This document shows, in pieces, positions 4,621 through 40,413 of a stretch of DNA of 40,413 nucleotides (the first letter of the stretch is position 1; every line of letters begins with the position of its first letter). Both the position numbers and the translations under genes were made by a program. This DNA comes from a virus: positions 1 to 40,413 of the IMG/VR virus record IMGVR_UViG_3300008448_000222, one strand, 5' to 3'. Under the pieces are notes generated by a model. It was given only the letters and a program-made list of their open reading frames with translations, ran no database searches and was not told the DNA's origin.

Positions 4621-4646
4621 ATATTTTTATTATATCTTTTTTTATT

Positions 4647-4703: not shown

Positions 4704-4715
4704 AATCTCTTAATC

Positions 4716-5279
4716 TTACTTAGATACAATTAAATCTTTTGTCCTATAGACAAGAGCTCTTGCTATAATTATACTATCCTCTGTCCTCGAATCAGACTTA
4801 AATTTATTATAATTGTTAAGCACAATTTGAGTATTATCCATAGTATAACCTTTATCAGAATCAATTCTATCAATAGATGGAGCATATGGACTTAGTTTAT
4901 CCAGATGACCATTTTTTGAATATTGTTTTATTTCAAAAGGTAGTCCAGTAACTGAACAAATACCCTCTCGTAATCTTGATTCTATCCACTCTATGCTTAA
5001 ATCAAAATCTAAATTCTTAGATTTAGATCTTGAATAAGCACTGTTCCACAGAGTTCTTGCTCTATATTTAATTGGATTATTTTTAGCATAGTTCTCAAGA
5101 TATTTTCGACGCATCTCTTTACGTTCAAGTTCTCTATTTTTATCATCAATTTTCTTTTGAACAGATTTTGCCTTTCTCTTATAATGACCATGCTCCACTA
5201 ATAATTCGGATATTTGATTTGCATTTAAATCAAACATGAATTTATGGATTAAGTTAAGTTCTTTATTACTATATCTCAT
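4716..5279 (-). CDS. HNH-type endonuclease, probably a free-standing homing enzyme
   Basis: A 187-residue protein starting at the ATG at 5277-5279, one base after the dUTPase stop; the longer frame from 5300 would need a TTG start inside dut. The C-terminal half holds CSVTGLPFE, then SIDRIDSDKGYTMDN and QIVLNNYN. This matches the phage HNH family where a Cys-rich turn is followed by a D-R-x-D...GY...N core. The N-terminal half is a basic, Lys/Arg-rich helical region that could bind DNA. No intron surrounds it, so it is most likely a selfish free-standing endonuclease at the end of the operon. A structure-specific nuclease of the endonuclease VII group is an alternative. Confidence 0.7.
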   Translation of the reverse strand: MRYSNKELNLIHKFMFDLNANQISELLVEHGHYKRKAKSVQKKIDDKNRELERKEMRRKYLENYAKNNPIKYRARTLWNSAYSRSKSKNLDFDLSIEWIESRLREGICSVTGLPFEIKQYSKNGHLDKLSPYAPSIDRIDSDKGYTMDNTQIVLNNYNKFKSDSRTEDSIIIARALVYRTKDLIVSK

Positions 5280-18544: not shown

Positions 18545-19576
18545 GTTAACGTCTATATCGATAATTATATAATTATCACAAGACTCATATATACCAGGTG
18601 CAATACAACCGTGTATACCACCCACACCAAAATCATATTGAAATCCTTCAAATATAATATGTAAGTTATCTACTGTACCTTTCTTTTTATCAATGAGATT
18701 TCTATTGAAATAAGGAATAATTTTACTTACTTTATTTAAACTAATATCAGTAAAGAATCCTTTTAAAACAGAACCTTCTATTCTACAAGATTTTAAGAAT
18801 TCAAGGAGATGTTGAAACTCTTTACTTTTAAAATTAATATATGGAAATATTAAATTAGAAAAAACAATTTCATCTCTTTTTGTTCTCATTTCTTTTAACT
18901 GAGAAACAGAAATATTCATTTCACTACTAATGATAGATGCAAATATTTCGGCACCAATCTTAGGAGCATTAGCATTTATAAGAGATAGATTATACTCTTT
19001 TGATAATGCTATTCTCATTGTAACTTGTTCTTTACTTTTTTTGTAGAACTCCCAAGTAGATAAAACATCATTAAGATTATACTTTAATATGTCTTCTACT
19101 TCGGAGTTTTCTACAATGTGGTAATGTGGTATTGGCATATCTTGAACATTAGACCAATTCATAGCAATTTGAATATGCTTCAATGAAGTTCTACGGTTCT
19201 TATTATCGAAATGCCAAATCCTGTACAAGTCTATTTGTTTGATTTTTACATTCTTTTCTGGTATACTTGAGTATTCACTCTCAATTATTCTTTGACTTTG
19301 TTCGTATAATAATTGATTTATTTTATAAGAAGGATAGTATTTCCATTTCTTATAATTAGAAAGAATAAAATGTAGTAAAGGGTAGTCATAATTAATATTA
19401 TTGTACCCTATCATTATATTACAATCATTTAAAAGAAACTTTACATACTCTTCTAATTGATTTACATCATTATGTATTACAAATGTTTTTATTGTTTCTG
19501 TGTATGGACAATAAGCAGTCATAGAATGAAAGTTTTTAAGCTGTTCTATGTCATATACCCATACATTATCCTTCAT
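18545..19576 (-). CDS. DNA polymerase family B, exon 1 (exonuclease domain to motif A)
   Basis: About 344 residues. The 3'-5' proofreading domain has WVYDIEQLKNF (Exo I, Asp 9/Glu 11), IMIGYNNINYDYPLLHF (Exo II) and ILKYNLNDVLSTWEFY (Exo III Y-x-x-x-D form). Then come ANAPKIGAEIF and FQYDFGVGGIHG, equivalent to the Y-x-GG region between exonuclease and polymerase domains. The frame ends with IIIDIDVN, the start of catalytic motif A, followed by a Tyr codon and stop that belong to the intron. With exon 2 this gives D-V-N-S-F-Y-P, as in protein-primed-type B polymerases. Its start overlaps the acidic protein gene by 11 bases. Confidence 0.92.
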
Positions 19577-28861: not shown

Positions 28862-29674
28862 TTACATTGTTTTTAAAATTATATAATGATCTCCTTTCTT
28901 GTTTTTAAATTGAAGACCTTTACCTTTAATCCTTATTTTTTGATTATTTTTAATTTTATCAGGAAGTTTTACATCAACTTTCCCATCTACAGTTTCAACT
29001 CTCACTGTAGAGTTAGCATCAGTACTATATAATTTTAGTTCTGAGATTACTGCAGGTTGATCGTTTTCAACTTTTTCAATCCAAAACTCTTCTCCTTTTT
29101 TATAAATAGGTTTTATTATTAAATTACCCATTGGAAGATTTTTTATTAAATCTCCAAAAGTATAATAAACTAAATTACCATCTTCATTCATTACGTCTGC
29201 TGTAATATTAACCTCAATCATTACATCTTGATATAATACTCCAATATTACCACAATTAGAACATCCTTGGTTTTTACACTCTTCACAGGATATCCTTCTT
29301 GTATACATTACCATTGTTTTAAAAGTATCATTAATTTGTTGAACTGTCAGTTCCATATCTATTACAATATCAACTGAAGGTCTTCTTTTCATCCTTTTCT
29401 TTACGTTAAAAGTATTAATACTTTCTATAAATTCATCTGAATCGTAATAAGGACGTGGTGCATTTAAATACTTTACATACTCCTCTTGATGTTTTTTTAT
29501 ATAATCATGAGCAGAATTAATTTTTTTAAATGTCTCTTCATCTCCACCTTTCTTGTCTGGATGATGTTCAATTGCGAGTTGTTTAAAAGTAGATTTTAAT
29601 TTTTCATCATTTAAAGAATCTACAAGACTTAGTTTAAGAATTTTACAAGATTCTTCATAGGTTTTAAGAAACAT
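28862..29674 (-). CDS. DnaJ-like co-chaperone
   Basis: A 270-residue J-domain protein. The J domain occupies about residues 5-65 with the HPD tripeptide at 38-40 (EHHPDKKGGDEETFKKIN). The Gly/Phe linker is lost. A reduced zinc finger CEECKNQGCSNCGN (two C-x2-C pairs, half of the four in DnaJ) follows near 130-145. Two beta C-terminal domains end in IRIKGKGLQFKNKKGDHYI, the usual 'G.G....GDl.v' end. It should direct host DnaK to phage substrates, such as replication complexes. No phage DnaK is in the window. Confidence 0.9.
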   Translation of the reverse strand: MFLKTYEESCKILKLSLVDSLNDEKLKSTFKQLAIEHHPDKKGGDEETFKKINSAHDYIKKHQEEYVKYLNAPRPYYDSDEFIESINTFNVKKRMKRRPSVDIVIDMELTVQQINDTFKTMVMYTRRISCEECKNQGCSNCGNIGVLYQDVMIEVNITADVMNEDGNLVYYTFGDLIKNLPMGNLIIKPIYKKGEEFWIEKVENDQPAVISELKLYSTDANSTVRVETVDGKVDVKLPDKIKNNQKIRIKGKGLQFKNKKGDHYIILKTM

Positions 29675-30062
29675 TTTTTTCTTTTTTAATTAATTTTATA
29701 ATTATAGGATTCATTTCCAATCTAATAATAAAACCAACTATAGAAGCTATAGTGTTTGGAGTTTCTAAACTATCAGTAATTGGCATAAATCTATTTTCAA
29801 AACTTTCATAATAATTAGCTTTTTCACTTGTCGTAATATAACAATCAGGATCTACTTCAAACCTTCCTAAATTTGGAACAAATATCTCAGGATGAGTAGA
29901 ATTCCAAAAAGAATTATTTTTTCGATAGTAATTATATACTCCTGATTTAGGAAATATTTCATTAGCAAACAATCTAATTAAACCTATAACATTATTATAA
30001 GCATCTACTTTATAAGCAATACAATCTCTAATTATTTTTATATAACCGTGAGTATTATTCAT
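29664..30062 (-). CDS. Unknown protein downstream of the mini-tRNA-like element
   Basis: A 132-residue protein from the ATG at 30060-30062 (MNNTHGYIKIIRD). The frame can be extended to an ATG at 30104, but that start lies inside the T-arm of the tRNA-like element, so the shorter form is preferred. It has aromatic sections (SGVYNYYRKNNSFWN, KANYYESFENRFMP) and a hydrophobic final third (NTIASIVGFIIRLEMNPIIIKL) that could be an amphipathic or membrane helix. No family is recognised. It overlaps the DnaJ-like gene by 11 bases. Confidence 0.65.
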   Translation of the reverse strand: MNNTHGYIKIIRDCIAYKVDAYNNVIGLIRLFANEIFPKSGVYNYYRKNNSFWNSTHPEIFVPNLGRFEVDPDCYITTSEKANYYESFENRFMPITDSLETPNTIASIVGFIIRLEMNPIIIKLIKKEKNVS

Positions 30063-30077
30063 TATCTTATTGTTTTG

Positions 30078-30123
30078 AGCGATGGAGAGATTCGAACTCT
30101 CCATACTCCCTATGAGTATCGCT
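30078..30123 (-). other. Mini-tRNA-like element: acceptor and T-arm without a normal anticodon arm
   Basis: On the minus strand AGCGATA / CATCGCT (six pairs and one A-C mismatch) forms an acceptor-like stem. It is followed by a small hairpin (ATACTC / GAGTAT around ATAGG) and then a perfect T-arm, GGAGAG-TTCGAAT-CTCTCC, whose loop has all conserved T-loop bases. Acceptor and T-stem add to 12 bp as in real tRNAs. Only 46 bases lie between the ends, so one whole arm is missing. The 5' end overlaps the stop codon of the synthetase-like gene. It may be a functional tRNA mimic, a tRNA remnant or an attachment-site core. Confidence 0.55.
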
Positions 30124-30967
30124 ATAGAAGATTACAGAGCTCCATAGCTCTAATTAATCTTGTAATTCCAACTCCAGCACCAACTCTTGGAAAGAATTTG
30201 TTGCTAAGAAATTCATTTAATTCATTTATTACTCTTTCATATCCAAATAAGTCAAATAGCTTTTCAGCATATTTACCATCTTCAATATTAAAGAATGTAT
30301 CTCTCATTTGTTCAACATTACAAGAACGTTCAGCTGAACCAATAGTTTCTTGACCACAAAGAATAACATCTATTTTTTTAGAGTTACCGTTATTGTATCT
30401 TTTCATATTCCAGAATGGATTAGTTCTTTCTGGGAAGTTCATTATAAATAAAGCATTTGAAATAGTTTCACCTAGCTCGTTTTCTAATTCAGAATTAATA
30501 ATATCTACATCATAAGTTTGACATATATCTTCATAATTCATCATTTTATAATCATCAAATCCTAAGAAATCAAGTAATTCAGTTTCAACTAAATGAAGAT
30601 CTGTCATATCACCTGGAAACTCAAATTCAAACATTGGAAAGATCATACAATGACGACCTTCTATTGGATTCTTTTCTGCTCTGTATGAGGTACTGAGACA
30701 ATAAAAACCTGGTACTTCAGGATTGTTTAATAATTCGTGTTCAAGCCACATTTGACCAGTTTGAGGTAATGGCCATACCTTACCCGCATAATCGTATGTA
30801 CGAACATTAAACGGGTCTTCACAAGCTGCAAGAATAGATAATCTATTCTGAGTGTGTACTTCTAAAAATCCTTTTTCATCAAAGAATTGTCTTAATTTTT
30901 TTACAACTTTTGTAAATTTATCAGCATCAATATGCGGATAAAAAGAAGAGTGTAATGAGTGCTTCAT
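30122..30967 (-). CDS. Class II aminoacyl-tRNA synthetase-like catalytic domain (Asp/Asn/Lys group)
   Basis: A 281-residue protein consisting of a class II synthetase core only. FFDEKGFLEVHTQN is the motif 1 region, LPQTGQMWLEHELL the substrate-loop segment, CLSTSYRAEKNPIEGRHCMI plus FPMFEFEF is motif 2, and GAGVGITRLIRAMEL is motif 3 with its Arg. These resemble the AspRS/AsnRS/LysRS group, but the OB-fold anticodon-binding domain is absent, as in paralogues such as AsnA or EpmA. It could aminoacylate a minimal RNA, modify a protein or make asparagine. A promoter-like box lies about 60 bases upstream. Confidence 0.82.
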   Translation of the reverse strand: MKHSLHSSFYPHIDADKFTKVVKKLRQFFDEKGFLEVHTQNRLSILAACEDPFNVRTYDYAGKVWPLPQTGQMWLEHELLNNPEVPGFYCLSTSYRAEKNPIEGRHCMIFPMFEFEFPGDMTDLHLVETELLDFLGFDDYKMMNYEDICQTYDVDIINSELENELGETISNALFIMNFPERTNPFWNMKRYNNGNSKKIDVILCGQETIGSAERSCNVEQMRDTFFNIEDGKYAEKLFDLFGYERVINELNEFLSNKFFPRVGAGVGITRLIRAMELCNLL

Positions 30968-31025
30968 TCAAATAATTTTAATCATTAACAATTTTAAATC
31001 TCTTTAATTAATCTTTTCGATTATG

Positions 31026-31033
31026 CAAAGTTA
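31026..31033 (-). promoter_or_regulatory. Bacteroidetes-type -7 box (TAACTTTG) before the synthetase-like gene
   Basis: TAACTTTG on the minus strand matches TAnnTTTG and is identical to the box before the primase gene. It lies in the 82-base gap between thyX and the synthetase-like gene and would give a leader of about 55 bases. The gap is otherwise AT-rich with no hairpin. A clear -33 box is not seen. Confidence 0.5.
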
Positions 31034-31049
31034 AGAAATTAATAAATAA

Positions 31050-31718
31050 TTATAGTAACAATTTATCAGTTTCCCAAGCTTTTAACGTGTGTTCGAAGGG
31101 GTTACCTTCTATTTCTGAAACTAATTTTAGCATCTCTTGTGCTATCTCTCTAATTTCAAGTTGAGCATGTTCTGAATTTCTAAGTTTAAGAAAGTTAGCA
31201 AAACTTCTCATATTAAACGATACATCAGATTGTATCTGAGAGTTATACGTTTTAAAATATCTTGCTGATTCTTTTGCTCTTTTTCTACCAAGTATAGGAG
31301 TTAATTGCTCAAGACATTGATGGTAAAGTTTATTACCTTGTTTTGTATATTTTTCCAAAATTAATTGCCAATCTTCACCTATCAAAGGATCTAATTCACT
31401 ATCTCCAGCATTACTCCAATCTTGAGGAATATAAAACTTATCTTCTTTTAACTCTTTATATCTTGCACTTTCTGCATTAAGACTTGAGATTCTATGCTTT
31501 AATAAATGTATATGTGATGCAATATCACAATCAACAAGAAAATGAACTATACCTTTTTCAAAAGGTGTTTCATGTCCTTCTGACCAAAGCATATTTATTA
31601 GTTTAGGAATTCTATCTTTTTTATCTTCTGTTAGTTCTCTTGATGTAGATGTCCAAGCTGAACATGCTATTATTTCATCAGAACCGTAATGTCCAATTAA
31701 TTCTACTTTATTTTTCAT
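31050..31718 (-). CDS. thyX: Flavin-dependent thymidylate synthase
   Basis: A 222-residue ThyX from the ATG at 31716-31718 (MKNKVELIGHYGSDE); the frame beyond needs a TTG. The ThyX signature is KHRISSLNAESARY (RHR-x2-S-x-N-x2-S-x-R form). Other family features are SEGHETPFEKGIVHFLVDCDIA (the H..PFEH segment, here PFEK) and the C-terminal substrate region SFANFLKLRNSEHAQLEIR (F..R....AQ.EIR). It makes dTMP from dUMP with FAD and methylenetetrahydrofolate, using the dUMP delivered by the phage dUTPase. Confidence 0.96.
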   Translation of the reverse strand: MKNKVELIGHYGSDEIIACSAWTSTSRELTEDKKDRIPKLINMLWSEGHETPFEKGIVHFLVDCDIASHIHLLKHRISSLNAESARYKELKEDKFYIPQDWSNAGDSELDPLIGEDWQLILEKYTKQGNKLYHQCLEQLTPILGRKRAKESARYFKTYNSQIQSDVSFNMRSFANFLKLRNSEHAQLEIREIAQEMLKLVSEIEGNPFEHTLKAWETDKLLL

Positions 31719-31719
31719 A

Positions 31720-32028
31720 CTAAATAAATATTTTCTTTTTAACAATAATGGGAAATACTTCTACCATTACCGTGTGATATTGAAGAGGATCCACTTTATG
31801 ATTAACAAATAATTTATTAACTTTAAATATAATATTCTTTGGATCTATACCATGATTTATATATCTCATGTAAAACTTATTATCCTTTTTAAAGATACCT
31901 CCAGCACTAAACAAACCATCGTATTCACTTTGATCAATAATTTGTTCAAAGTTTTTTTGTTCGTTATTACATAAAAAAATGACTTCCCGAAGGAAGCCAT
32001 TCTCATCTTTTTCTTGTTTGATTAACAT
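31720..32028 (-). CDS. Unknown small protein
   Basis: A 102-residue protein with a regular beta-rich appearance: FLREVIFLCNNEQKNFEQ, GLFSAGGIFKKDNKFYMRYI and TVMVEVFPIIVKKKIFI. No known domain. Its stop is directly followed by the thyX start and its start overlaps the upstream gene by one base, so it is translated from the same mRNA as thyX. Confidence 0.68.
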   Translation of the reverse strand: MLIKQEKDENGFLREVIFLCNNEQKNFEQIIDQSEYDGLFSAGGIFKKDNKFYMRYINHGIDPKNIIFKVNKLFVNHKVDPLQYHTVMVEVFPIIVKKKIFI

Positions 32029-32381
32029 TATATAAATATGTAATTTTCTATAAAAACTTTTTCGTTTTTTATTTCATTTAAATAATCATCAAAATGTTCT
32101 TTGTAATAATTCATTTTAGAATCTAATTCTGTTGAATTAATTACAATTTCTCTAGAGCTAAGAGCATCAGATCTATTTAAAATGATGATCATCATTTCTT
32201 TTTTTGAGTTTTCAAAATCAAATAAGAACTGATCTTTTATTGTATAATCTTCATCTTCTAATTCAAATTCGTCATCATCAACATTATACTTTCTTTTAAT
32301 GTGTTCTGATAAGCATTTACTACATTCAGATTCAAAATCTTTATTAATATTAATTTCTTTATTAAGATGTTTACACCACAT
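32028..32381 (-). CDS. Unknown protein with an N-terminal Cys/His cluster
   Basis: A 117-residue protein. The start MWCKHLNKEI and ESECSKCLSEHIK give the series C, H, C-x2-C, H in the first 30 residues, a likely small zinc site. The rest is acidic and helical (DEFELEDEDYTIKDQFL), then basic. It is followed closely by other small genes of similar kind. Function unknown; a zinc-binding protein interaction domain is the most that can be said. Confidence 0.66.
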   Translation of the reverse strand: MWCKHLNKEININKDFESECSKCLSEHIKRKYNVDDDEFELEDEDYTIKDQFLFDFENSKKEMMIIILNRSDALSSREIVINSTELDSKMNYYKEHFDDYLNEIKNEKVFIENYIFI

Positions 32382-32383
32382 AC

Positions 32384-32545
32384 TTAAATACGTTTGTTTT
32401 CATTATCATTATTATATTTGTCTTTAAGTTCATCTCTGCAGATATGGCAAACTATAGAATCAATGCACATAAAATTTACCACAAACCATCTTGCTAGATG
32501 AGAACAATATTTACCAATCTTGGTTTTATGTTGTCTAGTTTTCAT
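32384..32545 (-). CDS. Small Cys/His-rich protein
   Basis: A 53-residue protein from the ATG at 32543-32545, overlapping the stop of the previous gene by 11 bases (ATGAAAACTAG). Cys and His are spaced as KYCSHLARWF...NFMCIDSIVCHICRDEL, giving C-x-H and C-x5-C-x2-C, a probable zinc knuckle. The end is polar (NNDNENKRI). The longer frame would need TTG at 32575. Real-gene status is supported by the overlap with both neighbours. Confidence 0.6.
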   Translation of the reverse strand: MKTRQHKTKIGKYCSHLARWFVVNFMCIDSIVCHICRDELKDKYNNDNENKRI

Positions 32546-32822
32546 TATAACTGTAAAATTCTTCTTCTTTATCAATAGCTGGATATATTTCTATATTATC
32601 CAAATCTAGAATAGGCTTTTTAAAAGCTTTCTTTATTTCTTTAAATTCATCATCTAAAACTTCTTCAGAATAGATTTCTTTTAAAATACCTTCTTCTGAC
32701 CAACCTACAATATTATTTTCATTGTCATAATAAACTTCTGCAATAAAATACTTTGTAGTTTCAATATCAAAATCATCAACTTCTTTTTGTTTACATCTTC
32801 TGTAATTCCAATAACCTATCAT
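32535..32822 (-). CDS. Small acidic unknown protein
   Basis: A 95-residue acidic protein: MIGYWNYRRCKQKEVDDFD, then YFIAEVYYDNENNIVGWSEEG, and an acidic helical section (EEVLDDEFKEIKKAFKKPI). It is 11 bases after the next gene start, which also begins MIGYL; the shared MIGY start may be chance. No domain recognised. Confidence 0.66.
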   Translation of the reverse strand: MIGYWNYRRCKQKEVDDFDIETTKYFIAEVYYDNENNIVGWSEEGILKEIYSEEVLDDEFKEIKKAFKKPILDLDNIEIYPAIDKEEEFYSYNEN

Positions 32823-32833
32823 AACTTATATTG

Positions 32834-33289
32834 TTATTTTAAAGAATACGGCTGTTTTTCTATAAAAGTTAAATGTTTGTATGGATCAAAAATATTGTAA
32901 AGTCTATAACCTTTATCGTCAGAATGAAAACCAGCAAAACCTAAATCATATAAGATTTCCATTACAAACTTTTCTTCAATAAGTATAGCATTATCTACAC
33001 CTTTTAACTGAGTTAAATAATCTTTTATATTATACTCACGATCATTTATATGAAAATACATAGGTAATCCAGTAGATAATATGAATTGATGCATATTATT
33101 CCAAGGATTAAACATCTTTTTCTTATCAGTAAATATTGAGTATTTGCCTATATAAGGATCAGTTAAAGTTTCTTTTGGTGAAAAATCTATAAAATCTTCC
33201 ATGTATCTTTTGTTTTTAGAAAGACTAACTAGTAGTAATTCACTTTCTATTGCTTCATTTCCATCAGGTAAAGCTAAATAACCTATCAT
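32834..33289 (-). CDS. Unknown protein, faintly like polyvalent-protein C-terminal segments
   Basis: A 151-residue protein starting MIGYLALPDGNEAIESELLLV. The end EILYDLGFAGFHSDDKGYRL followed by YNIFDPYKHLTFI resembles the 'LGYDG......yvvFnPnqIks' end of ADP-ribosyltransferase-like or polyvalent phage proteins. The upstream part lacks clear catalytic residues, so this is a weak hint. It begins a run of small genes leading to thyX, after a 62-base gap with an AT-rich inverted repeat. Confidence 0.6.
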   Translation of the reverse strand: MIGYLALPDGNEAIESELLLVSLSKNKRYMEDFIDFSPKETLTDPYIGKYSIFTDKKKMFNPWNNMHQFILSTGLPMYFHINDREYNIKDYLTQLKGVDNAILIEEKFVMEILYDLGFAGFHSDDKGYRLYNIFDPYKHLTFIEKQPYSLK

Positions 33290-33306
33290 TTTTATTGTTT
33301 TAAATT

Positions 33307-33332
33307 GTTAAAAATCCAACAATTTAATAAAA
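33307..33332 (-). repeat. AT-rich inverted repeat upstream of the 33289 gene start
   Basis: TAAATTGTT and AACAATTTA (9-bp arms) are separated by about 8 bases in the gap between the LexA-fold-like gene and the next gene. It lacks GC pairs and a U-tract, so it is a weak terminator but could be an operator. Placement is approximate. Confidence 0.35.
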
Positions 33333-33351
33333 TAATTATTAATACTAACAG

Positions 33352-33639
33352 TTATATTTCAACTTTAGCATATATTTTTTTAGTCCAACCAATCATAAAA
33401 TTTTTACCATCGTTAATTTGTACTCCTCTTGCTGCATTCTTTTTTGATACAACCCCATATTTATAAGATTTATCAGACTTATATAGTACCATATCACCTT
33501 CTGCTGCAGTTTCTAAACTACAAGGTACTAATTTAATCTTTTGATTAAGTCTTATTCTAGGTTCAAGAGTGTTATTCGTTATCTTTACAAAAACTTCGTT
33601 ATTAGTTTGCAATTCTTTTATAATATCTTCTTTATTCAT
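33352..33639 (-). CDS. Small LexA/S24-peptidase-fold-like protein without catalytic Ser
   Basis: A 95-residue protein. VFVKITNNTLEPRIRLNQKI matches the 'v.G.SM.P.i..GD.v' start of S24/S26 peptidase domains, followed by EGDMVLYKSDKSYKYGVVSK (GD.V..) and VQINDGKNFMIGW (l..dN....). The nucleophile Ser of SMxP is Thr in NTLEP, and the catalytic Lys site is unclear. There is no DNA-binding domain. It may be a binding-only remnant that interferes with LexA/UmuD-type proteins, or a coincidental small beta fold. Confidence 0.5.
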   Translation of the reverse strand: MNKEDIIKELQTNNEVFVKITNNTLEPRIRLNQKIKLVPCSLETAAEGDMVLYKSDKSYKYGVVSKKNAARGVQINDGKNFMIGWTKKIYAKVEI

Positions 33640-33651
33640 ATCTATAAAATA

Positions 33652-33687
33652 AAAAGCAGCTAAAGCTTTTACACTTTAACTGCTTTT
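33652..33687 (-). terminator. Rho-independent terminator after the AAA+ gene
   Basis: On the minus strand AAAAGCAG / CTGCTTTT and TAAAG / CTTTA form a 13-bp stem interrupted by one T-G position, with loop TGTAAAAG, ending in TTTTTATTTTAT. It lies just after the stop of the 399-residue AAA+ gene (33694). The complement also looks terminator-like, but only minus-strand genes are present. Confidence 0.82.
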
Positions 33688-33693
33688 AGTTAA

Positions 33694-34893
33694 TTAGAAT
33701 GTATTTTTTTTACTTTTAAACTTATGTTCAAACACAAAGTTTACATCATTTCTACATGATACTTTAATTAAATCGTGATTGTTAAAATCAATGCTTTCAA
33801 TAATCATATCACTATCCTCATGACTTTCATAATTAAGGATTAGTGAACAACTTGAATAATTATTGCTACTAGCATAATTGTAATCATCTAGTGTCATCAA
33901 TTGATTATCCATAACATAGGTTTTAACTTGTTCTCTATCTTCTCTGCTCAAATCACCAAAATATCCGTGCTTAAATATTTTTGCTGTTGCTAAATTTAAA
34001 ACACGCATTAAAGAACTATGTTGAGTACGGAATATATCTATATATAATTGATCATCATGTAAATTAGTATAAACTTCATTACATTTATATAATGAATCGC
34101 CAAATTTCTCATGCGTTACATAATGTGAAGCCTCAGAAGAAACGTTAAGATGTTTTACAACTGACTTAGCGTCTTCTTCAAATAAATTCATATCTTTAAT
34201 AATAGTAATAAGTATATCAAATGTTACAATACCTAATTTTTTAAGTTGTTTAAGTAAATCATCCCTATTATCTTTATTGATGAGTAAATCATCAATTACC
34301 TCATTAATAGTATTTAGTTCTAAATTCTCATAATGTTTTCTGTATTTAATTCTACCTGGTCTGTTAATCATAAAATCACTTACGAGATTAACATCGTTAA
34401 CTGTAACTAGAAATACTAGCTTAGTAGTTAAATTACCATCGAATAATGATAAGAGATCAATAGGCATTTTATCCTTAGGATAAATCTTTTCGAACTCATC
34501 AATAAATACAATACATTCTTCAAATACAGGACTAGATAAAAATTCTATAAAGTTTGATCCGTAAAAAGCTTCTGTTAATATTAAAACAGGCTTCTTAGAG
34601 TCTACACAAAACTTTTGAGCAAGAATTGTTTTACCTGAACCCTTAAGACCACTTAAGAGTATACCTAAATTCTTATGTGAATTTTGTTCATAAGATTTTA
34701 ACCATCTTTCAGTTATAGACACATCACCATACACTTTGGACGGTAATTTAAAACCAGTTGTTTCTACAAGATAGAATTCATTATTTCTATCCTGTTTAAT
34801 CAAATAATTTTTAGGTCCAACATTACTGAGTTTGTCACCTATACCTGATACGGAACCAATTCTTATTTGGCCATCACCTAATTTGTAAAGCAT
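33694..34893 (-). CDS. AAA+ ATPase (Cdc48/Bcs1-like module)
   Basis: A 399-residue protein. Walker A is SGLKGSGKTILAQ (residues 81-93), Walker B is CIVFIDEFEKIYP, sensor 1 is FLVTVNDVNLVS and the GR box MINRPGRIKYRKHYENL. The N-terminal 70 residues are a small beta domain, and the C-terminal 150 residues are unlike known families. It differs from the 24365 ATPase in the N-domain and has the usual DE at Walker B, where the other reads ED. A protein-remodelling role in replication or assembly is likely. It is followed by a strong terminator. Confidence 0.88.
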   Translation of the reverse strand: MLYKLGDGQIRIGSVSGIGDKLSNVGPKNYLIKQDRNNEFYLVETTGFKLPSKVYGDVSITERWLKSYEQNSHKNLGILLSGLKGSGKTILAQKFCVDSKKPVLILTEAFYGSNFIEFLSSPVFEECIVFIDEFEKIYPKDKMPIDLLSLFDGNLTTKLVFLVTVNDVNLVSDFMINRPGRIKYRKHYENLELNTINEVIDDLLINKDNRDDLLKQLKKLGIVTFDILITIIKDMNLFEEDAKSVVKHLNVSSEASHYVTHEKFGDSLYKCNEVYTNLHDDQLYIDIFRTQHSSLMRVLNLATAKIFKHGYFGDLSREDREQVKTYVMDNQLMTLDDYNYASSNNYSSCSLILNYESHEDSDMIIESIDFNNHDLIKVSCRNDVNFVFEHKFKSKKNTF

Positions 34894-34895
34894 TT

Positions 34896-35180
34896 TTAAT
34901 CTTGTTTGTCGGTTTGTAAATTTTGATTCATAGCTAAACTTTCGTTATAAGTTTTAAAGAAATCATTAAAAATAACGGATGCTAAAATAAATGATAAATC
35001 ATCTCTTGTAACATCAGTATTAACTATAGTTTCTAATACTTGCGTAAAAGATAAACTTTCGTTACTTTTTATTAAAGTATCAATTGAAGACTCAATTAAT
35101 GCTCCTTTGACCTCAAGTTGATCAAAATCTTCTTCAGAAATACCTAAATTAGGTTCATCAAATTTAAAATTCGTTTCCAT
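34896..35180 (-). CDS. Small helical protein, tandem paralogue of 35180-35512
   Basis: A 94-residue acidic helical protein. NLGISEEDFDQLEVKG, SFTQVLETIVNTDVTRDDL and LASVIFNDFFKTYNES align with SLGITPEELIELQVKF, SLSQIVEELNTDLTKEEL and LAIQLKDDIISFYQNN of its neighbour. The two genes overlap by one base, so they arose by tandem duplication and likely form a heteromer. Function unknown; both lie between DnaX and the AAA+ gene. Confidence 0.72.
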   Translation of the reverse strand: METNFKFDEPNLGISEEDFDQLEVKGALIESSIDTLIKSNESLSFTQVLETIVNTDVTRDDLSFILASVIFNDFFKTYNESLAMNQNLQTDKQD

Positions 35181-35512
35181 TAGTTTTTATTTAAATTGTT
35201 TAATAATTCTTCAGATAGTATAATTCTTATCATATCTATATTGTTTTGGTAAAAAGATATAATATCATCTTTTAATTGAATAGCTAATACAACGGCTAAT
35301 TCTTCTTTAGTTAAATCAGTATTTAATTCTTCTACTATTTGAGATAAAGAATAAGTATCTTTTTGATTTTTGTTAACAAGTTGAGATGATATATTTAGAA
35401 TAATCTTCTTTTTTAAATACTCAAATTTTACTTGTAACTCTATCAGTTCTTCTGGTGTAATACCTAAAGATTGTGATATGTCGTTTTCAGTGTGTTTAAA
35501 ATTAAAAGTCAT
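35180..35512 (-). CDS. Small helical protein, tandem paralogue of 34896-35180
   Basis: A 110-residue helical protein, the longer member of the duplicated pair. It opens MTFNFKHTENDISQSLGIT and has the shared SLSQIVEELNTDLTKEEL block. The pattern (LGI-x2-EEL-x2-L-x-VK then ...NTDLT-x-EEL) is conserved between the copies although overall identity is modest. It overlaps the end of the dnaX-like gene by 4 bases, so production is coupled to the clamp loader. No DNA-binding motif seen. Confidence 0.72.
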   Translation of the reverse strand: MTFNFKHTENDISQSLGITPEELIELQVKFEYLKKKIILNISSQLVNKNQKDTYSLSQIVEELNTDLTKEELAVVLAIQLKDDIISFYQNNIDMIRIILSEELLNNLNKN

Positions 35513-36525
35513 TTCTTTTTAATGTTTAATTGTATATTAATAAATAATAATTCTAGACTAAGTCTTTTATTATGAGATAAATGATACCTTACAGAACACT
35601 CATCTATCAAACTTAAAACTTTAAATAAAGAGGCAGAACCTATTTTATCAAACTGGTTTTTCATTCTTTGTTTTTGTTCTTCAGGAATGTACACTAATTC
35701 AGAAATTTTATCATTTTTTAACATGAATAATTTTCTAAAATAGACAGCACTGTTTGTCATTATATCTTTTATATCATTACCTTCCTTGATTAACCTATCA
35801 AGTAGAAGCATCATGTCATCCATCTTACCATCAATCATAAAGTCTGTTAATTCTGTAAAAATAGAATCATCAATGTAATTTAACACAGATTCTAATTCTT
35901 TTAAATTAAGAGAATCATTAGTAGAAAACATACATTTTTCTAATAATGTCAAAGCATCTCTCATAGATCCATTAGCTTTCTCAGCTATAATGTAAAGTAA
36001 CTTTTCTTCATAATCTTTGTTATAATCTTTACATATTCCACTCATAGTATTAACTATTGAGTTCATGCTAATATTATTAAGATTAAAAACAGTACACCTT
36101 GATTTTATAGTATCAGGTATTTTATTAACTTCTGTTGTGCAAAGAATAAATAAAACATGCTTATATGGTTCTTCTAAAGGTTTTAAAAGAACATCAAAAG
36201 CTGCTTTACTAAGCATATGTACCTCGTCAATAATATAAACTTTTCTCTTAGAATCATAAGGAGGTATCTTTAATTGTAAAACTAAACTCCTTACATCATC
36301 TATGCTGTTATGAGATGCAGCATCTATTTCATGAATATCTATATTAGATGTTTGAAGTTCATTAGCAACAATTCTTGCTAAAGTTGTTTTACCTGTACCG
36401 TGTTTACCAGTAAAAATGATATTAGATATTTCATCTTTTTCTATCATCGATTTTAAAACTTTGATAGTAAATGATTGATCTTTAACATCATCAAAAACTT
36501 TAGGTCTATATTCATTATATAACAT
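35509..36525 (-). CDS. dnaX: Clamp loader subunit (DNA polymerase III gamma/tau-like)
   Basis: A 338-residue AAA+ protein with the DnaX layout: LYNEYRPKVFDDVKDQ at the start (the YRP.tF.d..GQ motif), Walker A GKHGTGKTT (40-48), HEIDAASHNSIDDVR, Walker B YIIDEVHMLS, FDVLLKPLEEP, CTTEVNKIPDTIKSRC (sensor 1 and SRC Arg finger) and GSMRDALTLLEKC. The zinc cysteines of bacterial gamma are absent. It lacks the tau tail. It should load a beta clamp; none is recognised in the window, so it either uses a host clamp or one encoded elsewhere. PolB exon 2 ends in a clamp-peptide-like QLTLF. Confidence 0.93.
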   Translation of the reverse strand: MLYNEYRPKVFDDVKDQSFTIKVLKSMIEKDEISNIIFTGKHGTGKTTLARIVANELQTSNIDIHEIDAASHNSIDDVRSLVLQLKIPPYDSKRKVYIIDEVHMLSKAAFDVLLKPLEEPYKHVLFILCTTEVNKIPDTIKSRCTVFNLNNISMNSIVNTMSGICKDYNKDYEEKLLYIIAEKANGSMRDALTLLEKCMFSTNDSLNLKELESVLNYIDDSIFTELTDFMIDGKMDDMMLLLDRLIKEGNDIKDIMTNSAVYFRKLFMLKNDKISELVYIPEEQKQRMKNQFDKIGSASLFKVLSLIDECSVRYHLSHNKRLSLELLFINIQLNIKKK

Positions 36526-36707
36526 TAAAGTTTATCTTGAATTTTAACCTTCTCAATATTATACTTTTTCATTTGAAAGTTAATATTTGAGAGTATTTGA
36601 AATCTATCAAATCTGTGATAAGAAGTTTCAACTACTTCTAAAAGATTACTGTATGCGTGAGCGTCACGAACTTCATTTAAAGTTTTGTAGATTTGCTTTT
36701 TTGTCAT
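36525..36707 (-). CDS. Small helical protein upstream of dnaX
   Basis: A 60-residue protein (MTKKQIYKTLNEVRDAHAYS), basic and helical. Its stop overlaps the dnaX start by one base, and its start overlaps the 333-residue gene by 4 bases, the tight packing of real phage genes. No motif. Confidence 0.62.
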   Translation of the reverse strand: MTKKQIYKTLNEVRDAHAYSNLLEVVETSYHRFDRFQILSNINFQMKKYNIEKVKIQDKL

Positions 36708-37705
36708 CGATTAATTGTTAATAATTGTTTAATTTGATCATCAGTTATTTCTACACCTACTTTCTTTAAATTATGAACCATATTTATAACTTCTGATATA
36801 AGATAAGGTTTATTATAATTATTTAAATTATTTTGATCTTTATATAAAACAGTATTACTTAATTTAGCATTTTTTATTTCTTTTAACATTTCATCTAAAT
36901 TATAACTGACATTATTTTTATCTAATAAATCTGTTATATACTTAAGATCATATAATGATCTGAGTGATGCATTAGACGGTGTTGGTAAAGATTTTAAAAA
37001 TGGTATTTTATCAAATAATACAGTTTTTATTCTTAACCTTGCTGAAATATTTCTTTGTAGATAATATATCAATATTATATTAAATAAAAAACATTCAATA
37101 TTTTTATCTTTTAATATAGTAAGTCCTATTTCTACATTATTAATATCTGTGCTGGTTAACAGTTCTTTTACTGCATCGTAATTAAAGTCATTTACATTAT
37201 CTTTAGTTGGATTTTCTAAATGATAATGTAACTTAGCAAAATATAAATCAGACATAATTATTTTATCTTTAACTTTACTTAACATGTCAATACTGACATT
37301 TTTAAATTTTTGATCAATTATAATACATCTTTTATACTTATCGCTACTATTTACATAATAGTAAATTTTGCCAGTTTCTTTATCTTTATATTGTTGTTGA
37401 ATAAAATAATAAGAACTTGACCATTCACTCTTAAATGAAGCGTAAGAAGGAAATATTAATATATCTGCATCATCAGAATTATCTACTACATTAAACTTAT
37501 AATGTTTACTTATTTTCTTTAATTTAGTTTTACTTATATTATTACCTGACACAAGATAAACTTTAGAGTTTTCTTGTATCTGTATATTATTATAATCTAT
37601 ATCAGTAAAACTTGTATTTTTAAGACCTAATTGTATCTTTTTATTTAGAGCTATAAGATCATCAAAAGAAACGTCTCCAGTATACTCTGTGCGTTTAAAA
37701 CTCAT
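36704..37705 (-). CDS. Unknown protein with a possible BRCT-like N-terminal part
   Basis: A 333-residue protein. Residues 50-85 (KVYLVSGNNISKTKLKKI, then YKFNVVDNSDDADILIFP) have the pattern of a BRCT-type alpha/beta unit: strand, helix, strand and a 'D-ILIFP' strand. The rest is helical (ECFLFNIILIYYLQRNIS, ITDDQIKQLLTINR). A coupling to DnaX is suggested by position. The BRCT reading is a guess from pattern only. No membrane protein: hydrophobic parts are short. Confidence 0.68.
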   Translation of the reverse strand: MSFKRTEYTGDVSFDDLIALNKKIQLGLKNTSFTDIDYNNIQIQENSKVYLVSGNNISKTKLKKISKHYKFNVVDNSDDADILIFPSYASFKSEWSSSYYFIQQQYKDKETGKIYYYVNSSDKYKRCIIIDQKFKNVSIDMLSKVKDKIIMSDLYFAKLHYHLENPTKDNVNDFNYDAVKELLTSTDINNVEIGLTILKDKNIECFLFNIILIYYLQRNISARLRIKTVLFDKIPFLKSLPTPSNASLRSLYDLKYITDLLDKNNVSYNLDEMLKEIKNAKLSNTVLYKDQNNLNNYNKPYLISEVINMVHNLKKVGVEITDDQIKQLLTINR

Positions 37706-37763
37706 TTCAAAAGTTGTTGTGTAATGTTTTAAAAGATAAAAAACATATAGAAAAAATAATACA

Positions 37764-37771
37764 TACTTTTG
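37764..37771 (+). promoter_or_regulatory. Plus-strand -7 box (TACTTTTG)
   Basis: TACTTTTG matches TAnnTTTG on the plus strand, about 46 bases before the plus-strand terminator stem. No -33 TTTG is seen at the expected distance, so the box alone is weak; the strand-specific terminator gives it weight. Confidence 0.42.
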
Positions 37772-37775
37772 TACT

Positions 37776-37855
37776 GTTTCTTCCGCTATCGGTTTGTTTT
37801 CCGTACTTTCTTTCTTAATGGGTAGATCTCCGTAAAGATCTATCCATTTTTTATT
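37776..37855 (+). ncRNA. Candidate small RNA on the plus strand
   Basis: A TACTTTTG box (37764-37771, TAnnTTTG) points to the plus strand and would start a transcript near 37776. About 40 bases on comes a 13-bp stem AATGGGTAGATCT / AGATCTATCCATT with loop CCGTAA, then TTTTTTATTTTATT. The stem has a G-T pair that reads G-U on the plus strand but A-C on the minus strand, and the T-run follows only on the plus strand. No plus-strand protein frame exists here. The RNA is convergent with the 148-residue gene and includes its end. Confidence 0.55.
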
Positions 37856-37860
37856 TTATT
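37817..37860 (+). terminator. Plus-strand rho-independent terminator
   Basis: Stem 37817-37829 pairs with 37836-37848 (13 bp, one G-U at 37822/37843), loop CCGTAA, then TTTTTTATTTTATT. On the minus strand the stem has an A-C mismatch and is followed by AAGAAAG, so it does not terminate the minus-strand genes. Confidence 0.72.
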
Positions 37861-38286
37861 TATTTTCTTAGTTACGTCTTGAACTTGAGAACTTCTTTTA
37901 CTGATTAAATACTTTGTAAGATCAGCAAGATTATGACCTATTACTTTTTTATCTTCAGAACTAAGAATCTTTGTACAAATACCGATTAAAATCCTTTCCT
38001 CAATTAATGATAATGGTTCATTATCTAAACGATTTTCACTTACATCAAATTTATTTGAAAGATTTTTATACAAAGAAGGATAATTTCCTTTTAATATGTA
38101 TATTAAATACTTTGTCCAATGATTTCCTGTATCATCATATCCACTAATAAAATGAAAATCAGGATAGTAAATATTTATAATATAAAGTCCTACCAATTCA
38201 TTAGATAAATAAGCTTTTAAATCAGAGTCAAATATCTCAGATTTATAAAAGATTAATAAATCTTCTAAAGTTTTCAAATCAGACAT
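37840..38286 (-). CDS. Unknown protein downstream of the tRNA-like gene
   Basis: A 148-residue protein. It is aromatic in the middle (LYIINIYYPDFHFISGYDDTG) and helical at the end (ERILIGICTKILSSEDKKVIG, then LADLTKYLISKRSS). The end is basic (KKINKIKNG) and encoded in the T-run of the plus-strand terminator, read antisense. No domain recognised. It lies 16 bases after the tRNA-like gene, so it may be co-transcribed with it and the TROVE gene. Confidence 0.68.
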   Translation of the reverse strand: MSDLKTLEDLLIFYKSEIFDSDLKAYLSNELVGLYIINIYYPDFHFISGYDDTGNHWTKYLIYILKGNYPSLYKNLSNKFDVSENRLDNEPLSLIEERILIGICTKILSSEDKKVIGHNLADLTKYLISKRSSQVQDVTKKINKIKNG

Positions 38287-38301
38287 GATTGTAAAAATTC
38301 A

Positions 38302-38376
38302 TAACTACGAAAGGATTTGAACCTTCACCCACTAAACAAAGAACATTTAGTATTCTTTCTATTAAACTACGTAGTT
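38302..38376 (-). tRNA. tRNA or tRNA-like RNA with a 9-base anticodon loop (identity uncertain)
   Basis: On the minus strand AACTACG / CGTAGTT make a perfect 7-bp acceptor stem with A as discriminator; no CCA is encoded. T-arm GAAGG-TTCAAAT-CCTTT has a canonical loop. The D-arm is weak (GTTT / GAAT, two wobbles) and its 8-base loop lacks GG. The anticodon stem CTAAA / TTTAG encloses TGTTCTTTG, 9 bases; if T and G close it, the middle reads UCU (Arg), but position 37 is then a pyrimidine. Size (75) and variable loop (TGGGT) are normal. It lies 8 bases after the TROVE gene stop, so a Y-RNA-like tRNA mimic is an alternative. Confidence 0.68.
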
Positions 38377-38384
38377 TATATAAA

Positions 38385-39161
38385 CTAAAATACATTTGGC
38401 TGAATTATTATTGATTGTATATCTGATCTTAGATTTTCTACATCAAAATCAATACCATTATTAAATAATTCTTGTTCTTCTTCATTATAACTATCTTTAG
38501 ATTTTATTATATCATAAAGAATAGCGTGAAATATATCTATTTCATACTCATCATTTACAGAATTTTTTATAGCTTTATCAATCTCTTTAGAATATTTATC
38601 TCTATCATTAAGATGACTTAGATATTCTGTAAGAGATATTTTCTCTATAGCTATTGAGTTTTTTGGATTAGGATGAAAGTATTTTATAACATCCTTCAGT
38701 TTTATACCTGATTCAAAATTATGATTATAATAATCAACAAATTCTGACCATTTAAAGTTTTCAAGAGCAGACTTTAAACCTTTTCTCATTGAGTTAGGAT
38801 AAGGAATATTTTTTACATCTTCTCTATTTCTCTTTTTTGATTCGTTTTCGTGGTAATAATTAATAATAGTAATTATATCTTTTACTTCATTAATTAAACC
38901 TCCCTGTTTGTTTATTCTCCTTGTAAATAAAAATTTAGCAAAACTCTCCTTCTTAAGATTTTTAATCAAATAAGATGAAGCCTGTAAGCATTTATTCCTA
39001 TTAAAATGATGATCTCTTGCATAAATAATAAGTTTGGCTGTATATTCAACTCCAAATTCATTTACGCAATCATCAACCAGTTTTTCAACATCATGATCAT
39101 TTTCTGATCTATTTAAATAAGAATAAAGAAAAGTGTCAGTTTCTAATTGTAAGGTATTCAT
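38385..39161 (-). CDS. TROVE-domain protein (Ro60/Rsr-like RNA-binding ring protein)
   Basis: A 258-residue helical protein. VEYTAKLIIYARDHHFNR and ASSYLIKNLKKESFAKFLF are HEAT-like helices. IPYPNSMRKGLKSALENF plus FVDYYNHNFESGIKLKDVIK and YFHPNPKN match the TROVE signature (P..LRKA...W......KY..R....hkDLLRL.HPkP). Ro60 rings bind misfolded RNA ends and Y RNAs. The von Willebrand domain of Ro60 is missing, and the ring may be shorter. A tRNA-like gene follows 8 bases after the stop, comparable to bacterial rsr loci where Y RNA (tRNA-like) lies next to rsr. Confidence 0.72.
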   Translation of the reverse strand: MNTLQLETDTFLYSYLNRSENDHDVEKLVDDCVNEFGVEYTAKLIIYARDHHFNRNKCLQASSYLIKNLKKESFAKFLFTRRINKQGGLINEVKDIITIINYYHENESKKRNREDVKNIPYPNSMRKGLKSALENFKWSEFVDYYNHNFESGIKLKDVIKYFHPNPKNSIAIEKISLTEYLSHLNDRDKYSKEIDKAIKNSVNDEYEIDIFHAILYDIIKSKDSYNEEEQELFNNGIDFDVENLRSDIQSIIIQPNVF

Positions 39162-39183
39162 GTTACTTAGTATTTGAAAAATA

Positions 39184-39218
39184 TAAAAAAAGCCTATCTC
39201 TTTTTTGAGACAGGCTTT
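39184..39218 (-). terminator. Rho-independent terminator after the lysin gene
   Basis: On the minus strand AAAGCCTGTCTC / GAGATAGGCTTT forms a 12-bp stem (one G-T) with loop AAAAAA, followed by TTTTTTT-type U-tract. It lies 4 bases past the lysin stop and 22 bases before the TROVE start, separating the two units. Confidence 0.92.
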
Positions 39219-39222
39219 AGTT

Positions 39223-39966
39223 TTAAATATAACTTTTATTTTTTTCAGGAAATTCTAGATCTAATAAGCGTAAGAATCCAACTCTATACCTGGGATTACA
39301 ATTCATGTAAGTTTGTTTTAGAGTTTCCCTAATTAAAGCATAAGCTTCTATAGGATCAGATTTACTTTTGTCGATAACGACACTCATCAAATCTTTACTA
39401 TCTTTTACATTTAAAGCTCTTTGTACTACTCCAAGATTTCCAAAATGTAGCTTAATGTGAAAAATAATATTTGCAACATCTTGATCGGATATTTCATACA
39501 TTTTCATGTCATCCCACCAACTTTTAAATATTCTTTTTACGTCTTCTTCTGTAAGACTTCTAAGATCTTCAACAGTTGCTGGTCTTTTTAGCATATGAGT
39601 CATAGCGCATGCGCTAACGTCTCTGTATGTTCCAACAAGATTACCTTGTCCACAACCACAACCAGTCCAATTACCAGCGTCATGAGGATCAGGGTTAACG
39701 GTATCATCATTCAAAGATGAAGTTAATTTTTTACGTACAGGTAGTTCCATATAAGAATTAAAATTTATATCTTTTAATTGTACTGTTGGTACTAAATTAA
39801 CCTTTCTAGGTTGAATAACCGGTTTCTCTTTCAAAGCAGTGTCTTGTTTTATTACCTTTACTTCTTGTCTTATTTGTTTAATTTCTGGTAAAGAACTGCT
39901 CTGAGATAAACTTGCTATACCAAATAACATGGTAAAACAAATTAATAAATCAAAAATTTTTGTCAT
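39223..39966 (-). CDS. GH108-like endolysin with N-terminal signal sequence
   Basis: A 247-residue protein. The N-terminus (MTKIFDLLICFTMLFGIASL) is a signal peptide or signal-anchor. The linker to about residue 80 is polar. The catalytic section has NPDPHDAGNWTGCGCGQGNL, then VGTYRDVSACAMTHMLKR, matching the 'DPGG.T..G......G' and downstream 'T.....a..ly...yw' elements (IFKSWWDDMKMYEI) of glycosyl hydrolase family 108 / phage N-acetylmuramidases. The usual catalytic EGG is not obvious (DDTVNPDP), so activity may be altered. It should cleave peptidoglycan at lysis. Own terminator. Confidence 0.72.
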   Translation of the reverse strand: MTKIFDLLICFTMLFGIASLSQSSSLPEIKQIRQEVKVIKQDTALKEKPVIQPRKVNLVPTVQLKDINFNSYMELPVRKKLTSSLNDDTVNPDPHDAGNWTGCGCGQGNLVGTYRDVSACAMTHMLKRPATVEDLRSLTEEDVKRIFKSWWDDMKMYEISDQDVANIIFHIKLHFGNLGVVQRALNVKDSKDLMSVVIDKSKSDPIEAYALIRETLKQTYMNCNPRYRVGFLRLLDLEFPEKNKSYI

Positions 39967-40128
39967 TTTGTTAATTTTTAGTTAATAATGATGAAAAAAG
40001 GTTACATCTTATGTGCTAAATTTAGCTATACAAAAGTTTCGTTTCGGTCTCGTCAGTAGCCGATTTTATACTCTCCCGAAATGAGTTAAAAGTAAAGATA
40101 TGGAATATATCCTTCTTTTTATGCTAAA
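39967..40128 (-). other. Intergenic region with structured RNA signals upstream of the lysin gene
   Basis: 162 bases without a protein frame. On the minus strand it holds TTTCGG / CCGAAA (40076-40081 with 40042-40047), between them CTGACGA (40050-40056), and downstream CGAAAC and GTATAGC. The series CTGACGA...GAAAC...GTA with flanking GCTA/TAGC recalls a hammerhead ribozyme, but stem II is not formed. A perfect palindrome GCTAAATTTAGC lies at 40015-40026. It is GC-richer than its surroundings, so a leader RNA or regulatory site is likely. Confidence 0.45.
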
Positions 40129-40413
40129 TTATTCATTTTCTAAATTAACACCAAAGATTTCTTCAGATTTTACGTTTAAGAAAAACATATAATCAAACTC
40201 TGAAGGATTTAATATAAAAACTGATAATTTAAACATTAATGATTTTATAGTATCAGTTCTAAGTTCAATTAGGTGAGGTGTAACACCACAAGATATTACT
40301 AAATGATGAATATTATCATCATTTACTAATTTAAATGTGCTTATTTGACTTGTATTAATTGCTAAAGTGTGATTATTTTTATCTTTAGCAAAAATAAGTC
40401 CAAAATTTTTATC
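40129..40413 (-). CDS. Unknown protein, C-terminal part (start outside window)
   Basis: The frame is open from base 40413 to the TAA at 40129-40131, giving the last 94 residues. It has beta-like sections (FGLIFAKDKNNHTLAINTS, HHLVISCGVTPHLIELR, then KLSVFILNPSEF) and ends VKSEEIFGVNLENE. No recognised domain. It is the gene transcribed before the lysin. It could be a structural or lysis-cassette protein; the fragment is too short to say. Confidence 0.72.
   Translation of the reverse strand, partial: DKNFGLIFAKDKNNHTLAINTSQISTFKLVNDDNIHHLVISCGVTPHLIELRTDTIKSLMFKLSVFILNPSEFDYMFFLNVKSEEIFGVNLENE

Follow-up and report, generated by a model that had tools for sequence, protein, structure and literature searches.

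Studies of Ro60 have dealt with a closed ring that is clamped by a vWA domain and gated by a Y RNA. What is to be made, then, of a phage gene for what looks like the first half of such a protein, lying 8 bases (38377-38384) from a tRNA-like gene on the same strand? The window considered here, that is the whole 40,413-base virus record IMGVR_UViG_3300008448_000222, contains such a pair: an ORF of 258 codons, open without frameshift, and a 75-base tRNA-like gene (Table 1). The original prediction, whose coordinates and spacing for the two genes are confirmed, read the RNA as a possible Y RNA gating a Ro60-like ring. Our analysis points elsewhere: in this crAss-like phage, the two genes probably just lie side by side on one strand, without forming a Ro60-Y RNA particle.

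TROVE proteins are recorded in a small subset of phages in a jumbo-phage survey (PMC7824862), a Ro60 homologue is reported in a Vibrio jumbo phage (PMC7765460), and an Rsr protein with nearby Y RNAs is proposed for a Listeria phage in a paper that also cites Y RNAs of mycobacteriophages (PMC12282133). Judging by titles and the beginnings of abstracts, no publication on TROVE or Rsr in crAss-like phages was found, and public records carry TROVE or 'Ro sixty-related' annotations in the phages cr111_1 and csAssE-Sib.

The phage and the gene neighbourhood

Over positions 1-439 and 29512-40413, the parts compared, the window matches a fuller contig of 89,557 bases (IMGVR_UViG_3300008262_000025, hereafter G001) at 100% identity. 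The DnaB helicase of the phage matches 76 phage records, all at less than 60% identity, including the crAss phages cr106_1 and crAss001 (25-26%) as well as Flavobacterium and Cellulophaga phages, from which we infer a crAss-like phage or a distant crAss relative. On the minus strand, the gene order is lysozyme-like ORF, TROVE ORF, tRNA, 148-aa ORF, 333-aa ORF and clamp loader. The 148-aa ORF has no Pfam or PHROG match at E <= 0.1, nor is it matched by the TROVE HMM described below.

Table 1. Features of the window around the shortened TROVE gene and the tRNA gene.
Feature	Coordinates	Strand	Details
258-aa N-terminal half-TROVE ('mini-TROVE')	38385..39161	-	no vWA/MIDAS; D143, H163; stop codon TAG
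tRNA-Arg(UCU), 75 nt	38302..38376	-	no encoded CCA; D-loop without GG; U after anticodon; no flanking Ro-binding stem
148-aa ORF	37840..38286	-	15 nt downstream of tRNA; function not assigned by Pfam/PHROG
Symmetrical hairpin and T run, terminator-like by eye	39180..39222		between lysozyme-like ORF and TROVE ORF
247-aa ORF, upstream neighbour	39223..39966	-	glycosyl hydrolase 108 match, E 1.3e-5

A shortened TROVE protein

Is the ORF a TROVE protein at all? The Pfam TROVE family (PF05731) is not reported for it at E <= 0.1 and has no match in the window record or G001; the names returned by Pfam and PHROGs (Utp13, 0.033; phrog_25678, 0.036) are at chance level, and a PDB sequence search with the single protein returns only two HepS entries (E 0.18 and 0.2), all of which were rejected. 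With tblastn, the ORF matches seven phage records (E 7e-5 to 2e-4), including Vibrio phage proteins annotated as 'RNA-binding' or as 'putative TROVE domain-containing', and an IMG/VR scan retrieves, besides the identical contig, a 610-aa TROVE at 30% identity (locus L026, tblastn E 7e-26) and 25 further TROVE loci. An HMM made from 22 full-length phage TROVEs, with the window and L026 left out, scores 59.4 bits on the ORF, against a maximum of 9.6 over 500 shuffles.

The fold points the same way. A structure model built from 22 aligned sequences has a pLDDT of 70.5, low from about residue 165 on (a single-sequence AF2 model, poor at pLDDT 43, was set aside). The eight top VIA-align rows for this model are all Ro60/TROVE structures (Z 13.5 to 7.4). 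Two cautions apply: among helical repeats a Z below about 13 can be common, as the tool warns, and rows 6-8 are level with the first row of an unrelated structure (Z 7.2). The N-terminal repeats superpose on the Ro60 of Thermus phage phiLo (PDB 9l5y; Z 12.6, rmsd 3.2 over 149 residues) and on another TROVE entry (9kop; Z 13.5, rmsd 2.9 over 151 residues), and the HPxP motif is kept. Against the PDB, Foldseek gives weak matches only (best E 0.18), and in a library of viral structures the top match is the TROVE protein of cr111_1 (E 4e-4). By homology and predicted fold, the ORF is a TROVE (Ro60) relative; the TROVE signature originally claimed for it stands as homology, but covers the N-terminal half only and goes unreported by PF05731.

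In each of the 26 IMG/VR TROVE loci, the stop-to-stop frame is 476-611 aa long and contains a DxSxS motif. Compared with Ro60, the window ORF lacks the C-terminal repeats, an NLAGG-like N-terminal segment and the vWA domain: it stops before the later repeats, and the MIDAS (DxSxS) is absent, with all MIDAS columns missing. Across the 23 full-length rows of the TROVE alignment, 125 columns are conserved in 19 rows or more. Of these columns, 62 are aligned to a window residue, 25 of them identical and 37 not, some of the 62 being forced alignment beyond the end of homology. Could the other half be encoded elsewhere? In pieces jointly covering G001, the TROVE HMM (E <= 0.1) gives only the N-terminal match, with no split vWA partner of TROVE type, and readthrough of the TAG stop adds only 3 codons. 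A survey of 32 other TROVE phage records gave a single long TROVE match in each, extending to at least profile position 470 in 31 of them and to 412 of 486 in Caulobacter phage CcrPW, with no second N-terminal-only match. The predicted 258-aa protein is the N-terminal half of a TROVE only, and a new shortened variant.

Two residues of Ro60, K170 and H187, which we take to be Y RNA contacts, were followed by alignment to chain 1yvp (presumably Xenopus Ro60). The position of K170 is a lysine in all 25 full-length phage TROVEs aligned and an aspartate (D143) in the window ORF; that of H187 is a histidine in 24 of the 25 (arginine in L026) and is retained in the window ORF as H163, with its HP motif, i.e., one of the two contact positions is kept.

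A second mini-TROVE was found on contig IMGVR_UViG_3300033049_000041 (L154 1498-2052, minus strand), in the same phage as the 610-aa full TROVE of L026, the closest relative found of the window ORF. This ORF of 184 aa from a TTG start (~153 aa from the first inner ATG) matches TROVE profile positions 129-193 (E 2.5e-10), likewise spans the N-terminal half only, ends after the HPxP motif and has lost the lysine (T at the K170 position, H kept). It differs from the window ORF in coexisting with a full-length TROVE and in having no adjoining tRNA. Two phages thus have a predicted half-TROVE, and neither of these proteins keeps the conserved lysine; this would show that the helical half can persist by itself.

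An odd tRNA-Arg(UCU)

The neighbouring RNA gene is a tRNA-Arg(TCT) according to ARAGORN, and the Rfam tRNA model matches it at 50.7 bits (gathering score 29; E 4.1e-8 in the window), YrlA not being reported by Rfam; its description as tRNA-like is borne out. So are the weak D-arm and the missing purine at position 37: the D-loop lacks GG (18-19), the D-stem is weak, and the base after the anticodon is U. The acceptor and T-arm, described as perfect, hold in the first case (7/7 pairs) and less strictly in the second, where the T-stem has 5 pairs including one G.U (T-loop UUCAAAU). The anticodon loop of 9 bases depends on the alignment: Rfam draws 5 bp with a 9-nt loop, but in the ARAGORN fold a 5-bp stem closes with U.G on a normal 7-nt loop (GUUCUUU) that has U33 in place.

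How unusual is such a tRNA? Among 84 distinct ARAGORN tRNAs from the window and all loci gathered, two lack GG in nt 13-23 (a crude test) and 15 have a pyrimidine after the anticodon; only the window tRNA-Arg combines both oddities. G001 has seven tRNAs over the Rfam cut-off (41.7-69.4 bits, the window tRNA among them), and its second tRNA-Arg(UCU) is near-canonical at 69.4 bits. AGA accounts for 612 of 822 Arg codons in mechanical ORFs of at least 120 aa. As to the position of the gene, three of the six ARAGORN tRNAs of the fuller contig (L012) have a mechanical ORF at a distance of 6, 15 or 25 bases, a fourth overlaps an ORF and two are at least 37 bases off, so that the gaps of 8 and 15 bases on either side of the window tRNA are unremarkable. 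The window RNA, a predicted cloverleaf above the Rfam gathering score, is an odd phage tRNA-Arg(UCU): it resembles the usual ones in cloverleaf, anticodon, length and the AGA-rich phage that carries it, and differs from them in the absent D-loop GG, in U37 and in a possibly longer anticodon helix.

A tRNA role in suppression or recoding was considered and dropped: G001 carries a CTA tRNA, yet TAG is the stop codon in 13 of 53 mechanical ORFs of at least 80 aa in the window, the TROVE ORF included.

Y RNAs beside full-length phage TROVE genes

Do phage TROVE genes go with Y RNAs, as the original prediction assumed? Short RNAs adjoin full-length phage TROVE genes and have one common Ro-binding stem, whose 5' strand ends in UACUUC and whose paired 3' strand is often followed by UGUU. 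A covariance model of these units contained no base pairs and misaligned the 3' strand, and was replaced by a score combining a position matrix and a stem score from 22 units, partly trained on the loci scanned. This score reaches at least 36.7 in 24 of the 26 IMG/VR TROVE loci (some near-duplicates), against a maximum of 30.1 in eight simulated 90-kb genomes. Loci outside the training set (L027, L029, L034-L037, L039-L041 and L051) score 37.0-44.4, and when one locus is left out at a time the 22 training units score 14.0 to 61.0, two of them below 30.1 (L038 2368, 14.0; L038 2611, 25.4). L026 and L042 have no Y RNA score, the latter with only 98 bases upstream. Three loci with a full-length TROVE and sequence on both sides (L026, L003 and L056) give no score above the simulations, which indicates that the stem search can miss divergent Y RNAs.

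Named phages with a Y RNA score include csAssE-Sib (43.9), Streptomyces phage Quantum (38.9) and Caulobacter phage CcrPW (49.5); the score is negative in phiKT1024 and cr111_1, and reaches 31.4 on the other strand only in Desulfovibrio phage 7757. Nine further loci score at least 33.5 (L062-L065 and L068), 30.5 (L067) or at most 26.8 (L061, L069 and L070). Rfam YrlA matches, under the cut-off of that family, occur at L045, L057, L058, L060 and L067.

In some of these loci, the Ro-binding stem encloses a tRNA. The record of the gut phage csAssE-Sib (L057, OR575929) has an annotated tRNA-Tyr and tRNA-Lys inside Ro stems at 4396-4815, upstream of its 'Ro sixty-related' gene (null fractions for flank pairing 0.02 and 0.015), and at L064 2352-2470 a tRNA-Gln stands inside a Ro stem upstream of a full-length TROVE (0.0). 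The tRNA-Gln of cr111_1 also has a strong flanking stem (0.0), but may be an ordinary precursor because its motif has diverged and its CCA is encoded. Overall, when flank pairing was tested in 24 of the 35 ARAGORN tRNAs of eight loci, five fell at a null fraction of 0.02 or below, for a chance expectation of ~0.5: these four and a tRNA-Gly of L067 (0.02). The csAssE-Sib and L064 RNAs are candidate Y RNAs with complete, non-permuted tRNA modules, adjoining permuted YrlA-like units (L057 4398, L064 2590). As a general idea, an association of phage TROVE genes with Y RNAs, including ones that mimic tRNA, is well supported by the 24 loci and by the csAssE-Sib tRNAs, and some 'tRNA genes' annotated beside phage Ro60 would be Y RNA modules, which affects the reading of phage tRNA content.

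The TROVEs of cr111_1 (MT774387, Crassvirales) and csAssE-Sib, 53% identical to each other, resemble the window ORF in lying near tRNA-like genes, the csAssE-Sib record not being assigned to Crassvirales. They differ from it in having 552 and 544 aa with ring and vWA, and the csAssE-Sib tRNAs are inside Ro stems.

Further RNAs were seen near phage TROVE genes. A tRNA-like RNA (47.4 bits) at L048 4445-4571, next to a full-length TROVE, has an acceptor stem at its ends and, by eye, a Ro-binding stem in opposite order in place of the anticodon arm, like a circular permutation of YrlA. At L044 4484-4950, an array of five Y RNA units sharing the Ro stem directly follows a phage TROVE gene, and a tmRNA gene at L026 5484-5870 (71.5 bits, cut-off 47) lies ~0.8 kb downstream of the phage TROVE gene.

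No Ro-binding stem and no second locus for the pair

The flanks of the window tRNA are unpaired (flank duplex -7.5 kcal/mol, null fraction 0.565) and form no Ro-binding stem, and the gap to the TROVE stop codon is only 8 bases. By Y RNA score, there is no Ro stem beside the window TROVE, nor credibly elsewhere in G001, where two matches (32.7 and 31.8) are slightly over the highest of the eight simulations, the first lying antisense to the TROVE, ~2.9 kb away, inside an ORF. In eight other tRNA-like genes of G001, the Ro motif is absent by eye, and the null fractions for flank pairing are at least 0.15 in seven and 0.027 in a 116-nt tRNA-like gene. The window RNA shares with YrlA and bacterial Y RNAs (RF02553) a tRNA-like character, but is not permuted and has no Ro-binding stem.

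Does the pair exist in related phages? Single-protein, two-protein and tRNA-pattern scans find it only in the identical contig, and a genome-contig scan with the window and L026 returns no relative. A scan with the AsnRS-like protein gives 496 relatives, of which the best 80, one being G001, were kept; the other 79 contain neither the pair nor a TROVE N-terminal half. Eight window neighbours tested are absent from these 79 loci, save for distant clamp loaders in four (L123, L127, L133 and L141), and two weak TROVE matches (L125 and L139) concern the vWA part only. The pair is likewise missing from 11 clamp-loader loci, and the look for the same pair in related phages, suggested in the original prediction, finds no case beyond the identical contig. 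As many of the compared loci are short, and do not reach the place or are not collinear with it, this absence is weak evidence.

Neighbours, particle, decoy or decay?

How do these observations bear on the nature of the pair? We consider it probable that the two genes are simply neighbours, although the probabilities that we attach to the readings below overlap in part and need not add up to one. The ORF would be what remains of a phage Ro60/TROVE, its N-terminal half of helical repeats, after loss of the vWA domain and the other parts of the ring; the ability to close the ring and to bind Y RNA in the canonical way presumably went with them. Most likely the ORF survives as a small RNA-binding helical domain, or as a relic. 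The tRNA, probably cotranscribed with the ORF given their strand and spacing, would most likely work as a second phage tRNA-Arg(UCU) supplying AGA decoding; it may also stand in for host tRNA-Arg that anticodon nucleases have cut, the altered loop perhaps making it a poorer target. Some points argue against this reading. The tRNA is odd for a working one, with a weak D-stem, U37 and no GG through which the D- and T-loops could make contact; the phage already has a near-canonical tRNA-Arg(UCU); and the tRNA stands exactly at the truncation point of the TROVE, which suggests some link between the two.

Two rivals, both unlikely, each overlap in part with the neighbours reading. In the first, raised in the original prediction as an alternative, the tRNA-Arg would be a decoy or nuclease-resistant form whose altered anticodon arm survives or titrates a host anticodon nuclease, the TROVE fragment being unrelated. 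Being an extra copy of an isoacceptor that the phage already has, with its U after the anticodon and unusual D-loop, it would suit such a role, and phage tRNAs that evade tRNA-targeting defence are on record (PMC10264068, PMC11555353), one of these papers naming anticodon-loop mutations. However, the loop is a standard 7 nt in the ARAGORN fold; of the alternative, what holds is that a translational or anti-nuclease tRNA fits better than a Y RNA. The second rival, given the same low probability, is decay: recombination at the tRNA would have removed the C-terminal half of the TROVE, both pieces now being lost, a reading that overlaps with the relic option above. The end of the TROVE 8 bases before the tRNA, the other aberrant tRNA-like genes of the same contig and the many conserved columns that are not identical in the window are in its favour, but the 258 codons remain open, the acceptor stem is intact, and another phage has a mini-TROVE that stops at a similar point.

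That the two genes form a minimal Ro60-Y RNA pair, with the mini-TROVE binding the tRNA-like RNA in a pared-down particle for handling damaged RNA or fragments of tRNA, is quite improbable. Adjacency on the same strand, the Y RNAs of other phage TROVEs (with complete tRNA modules in the Ro stems of csAssE-Sib), the structural oddity of the tRNA and the retained H163 of the HP motif are what could be expected of such a pair. Yet no Ro-binding stem surrounds the tRNA, the conserved lysine is lost, the protein could close no ring by itself for want of a vWA domain, and no second locus is found besides the identical contig; on these same grounds, the view of the window RNA as a Y RNA gating a ring is not supported. 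Least probable of all is an RNP reduced to its core, in which a vWA-less half-Ro60, no longer dependent on the Ro-binding stem, would hold a free tRNA derived from Y RNAs of the 'tRNA inside Ro stem' kind such as those of csAssE-Sib and L064; the phage would use it to catch tRNA fragments or to shield tRNA-Arg.

Other features of the phage

Several further tRNA genes of this phage and its relatives are unusual. On the minus strand of the fuller contig, L012 9683-9798 is an aberrant tRNA-like gene of 116 nt with a long variable region, L012 12559-12681 is another of 123 nt with ends common to a Trp(CCA) gene, and a D-armless tRNA-like gene lies, by eye, at about L012 9251-9322. The CTA-anticodon tRNA is at L012 2916-2983 (minus strand), and no gene in the pieces examined looked clearly recoded. 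An AsnRS-like gene (phrog_29758) occupies 30122-30967 (minus strand) of the window, where ARAGORN finds no tRNA beside it; in many relatives (L106-L146), a tRNA-Asn(GTT) of ~84-89 nt stands just downstream, often at ~14 bases and up to ~130, and 13 distinct ones have a pyrimidine after the anticodon.

Two ribozyme matches, both under their cut-offs, were also noted on the minus strand: a RAGATH-1 hammerhead at 40024-40087 of the window (45.1 bits, E 1.7e-5, cut-off 56.3) and a type-P1 twister at L012 19392-19444 of the fuller contig (60 bits, E 1.5e-11, cut-off 67.2). Finally, a DNA polymerase-like ORF at 18539-19576 (minus strand) and, by eye, a second polymerase-like piece at 16633-17445 flank an ORF (17617-18294) that resembles a GIY-YIG endonuclease by its motif; the whole (16633-19576, minus strand) has the arrangement of an intron with a homing endonuclease.
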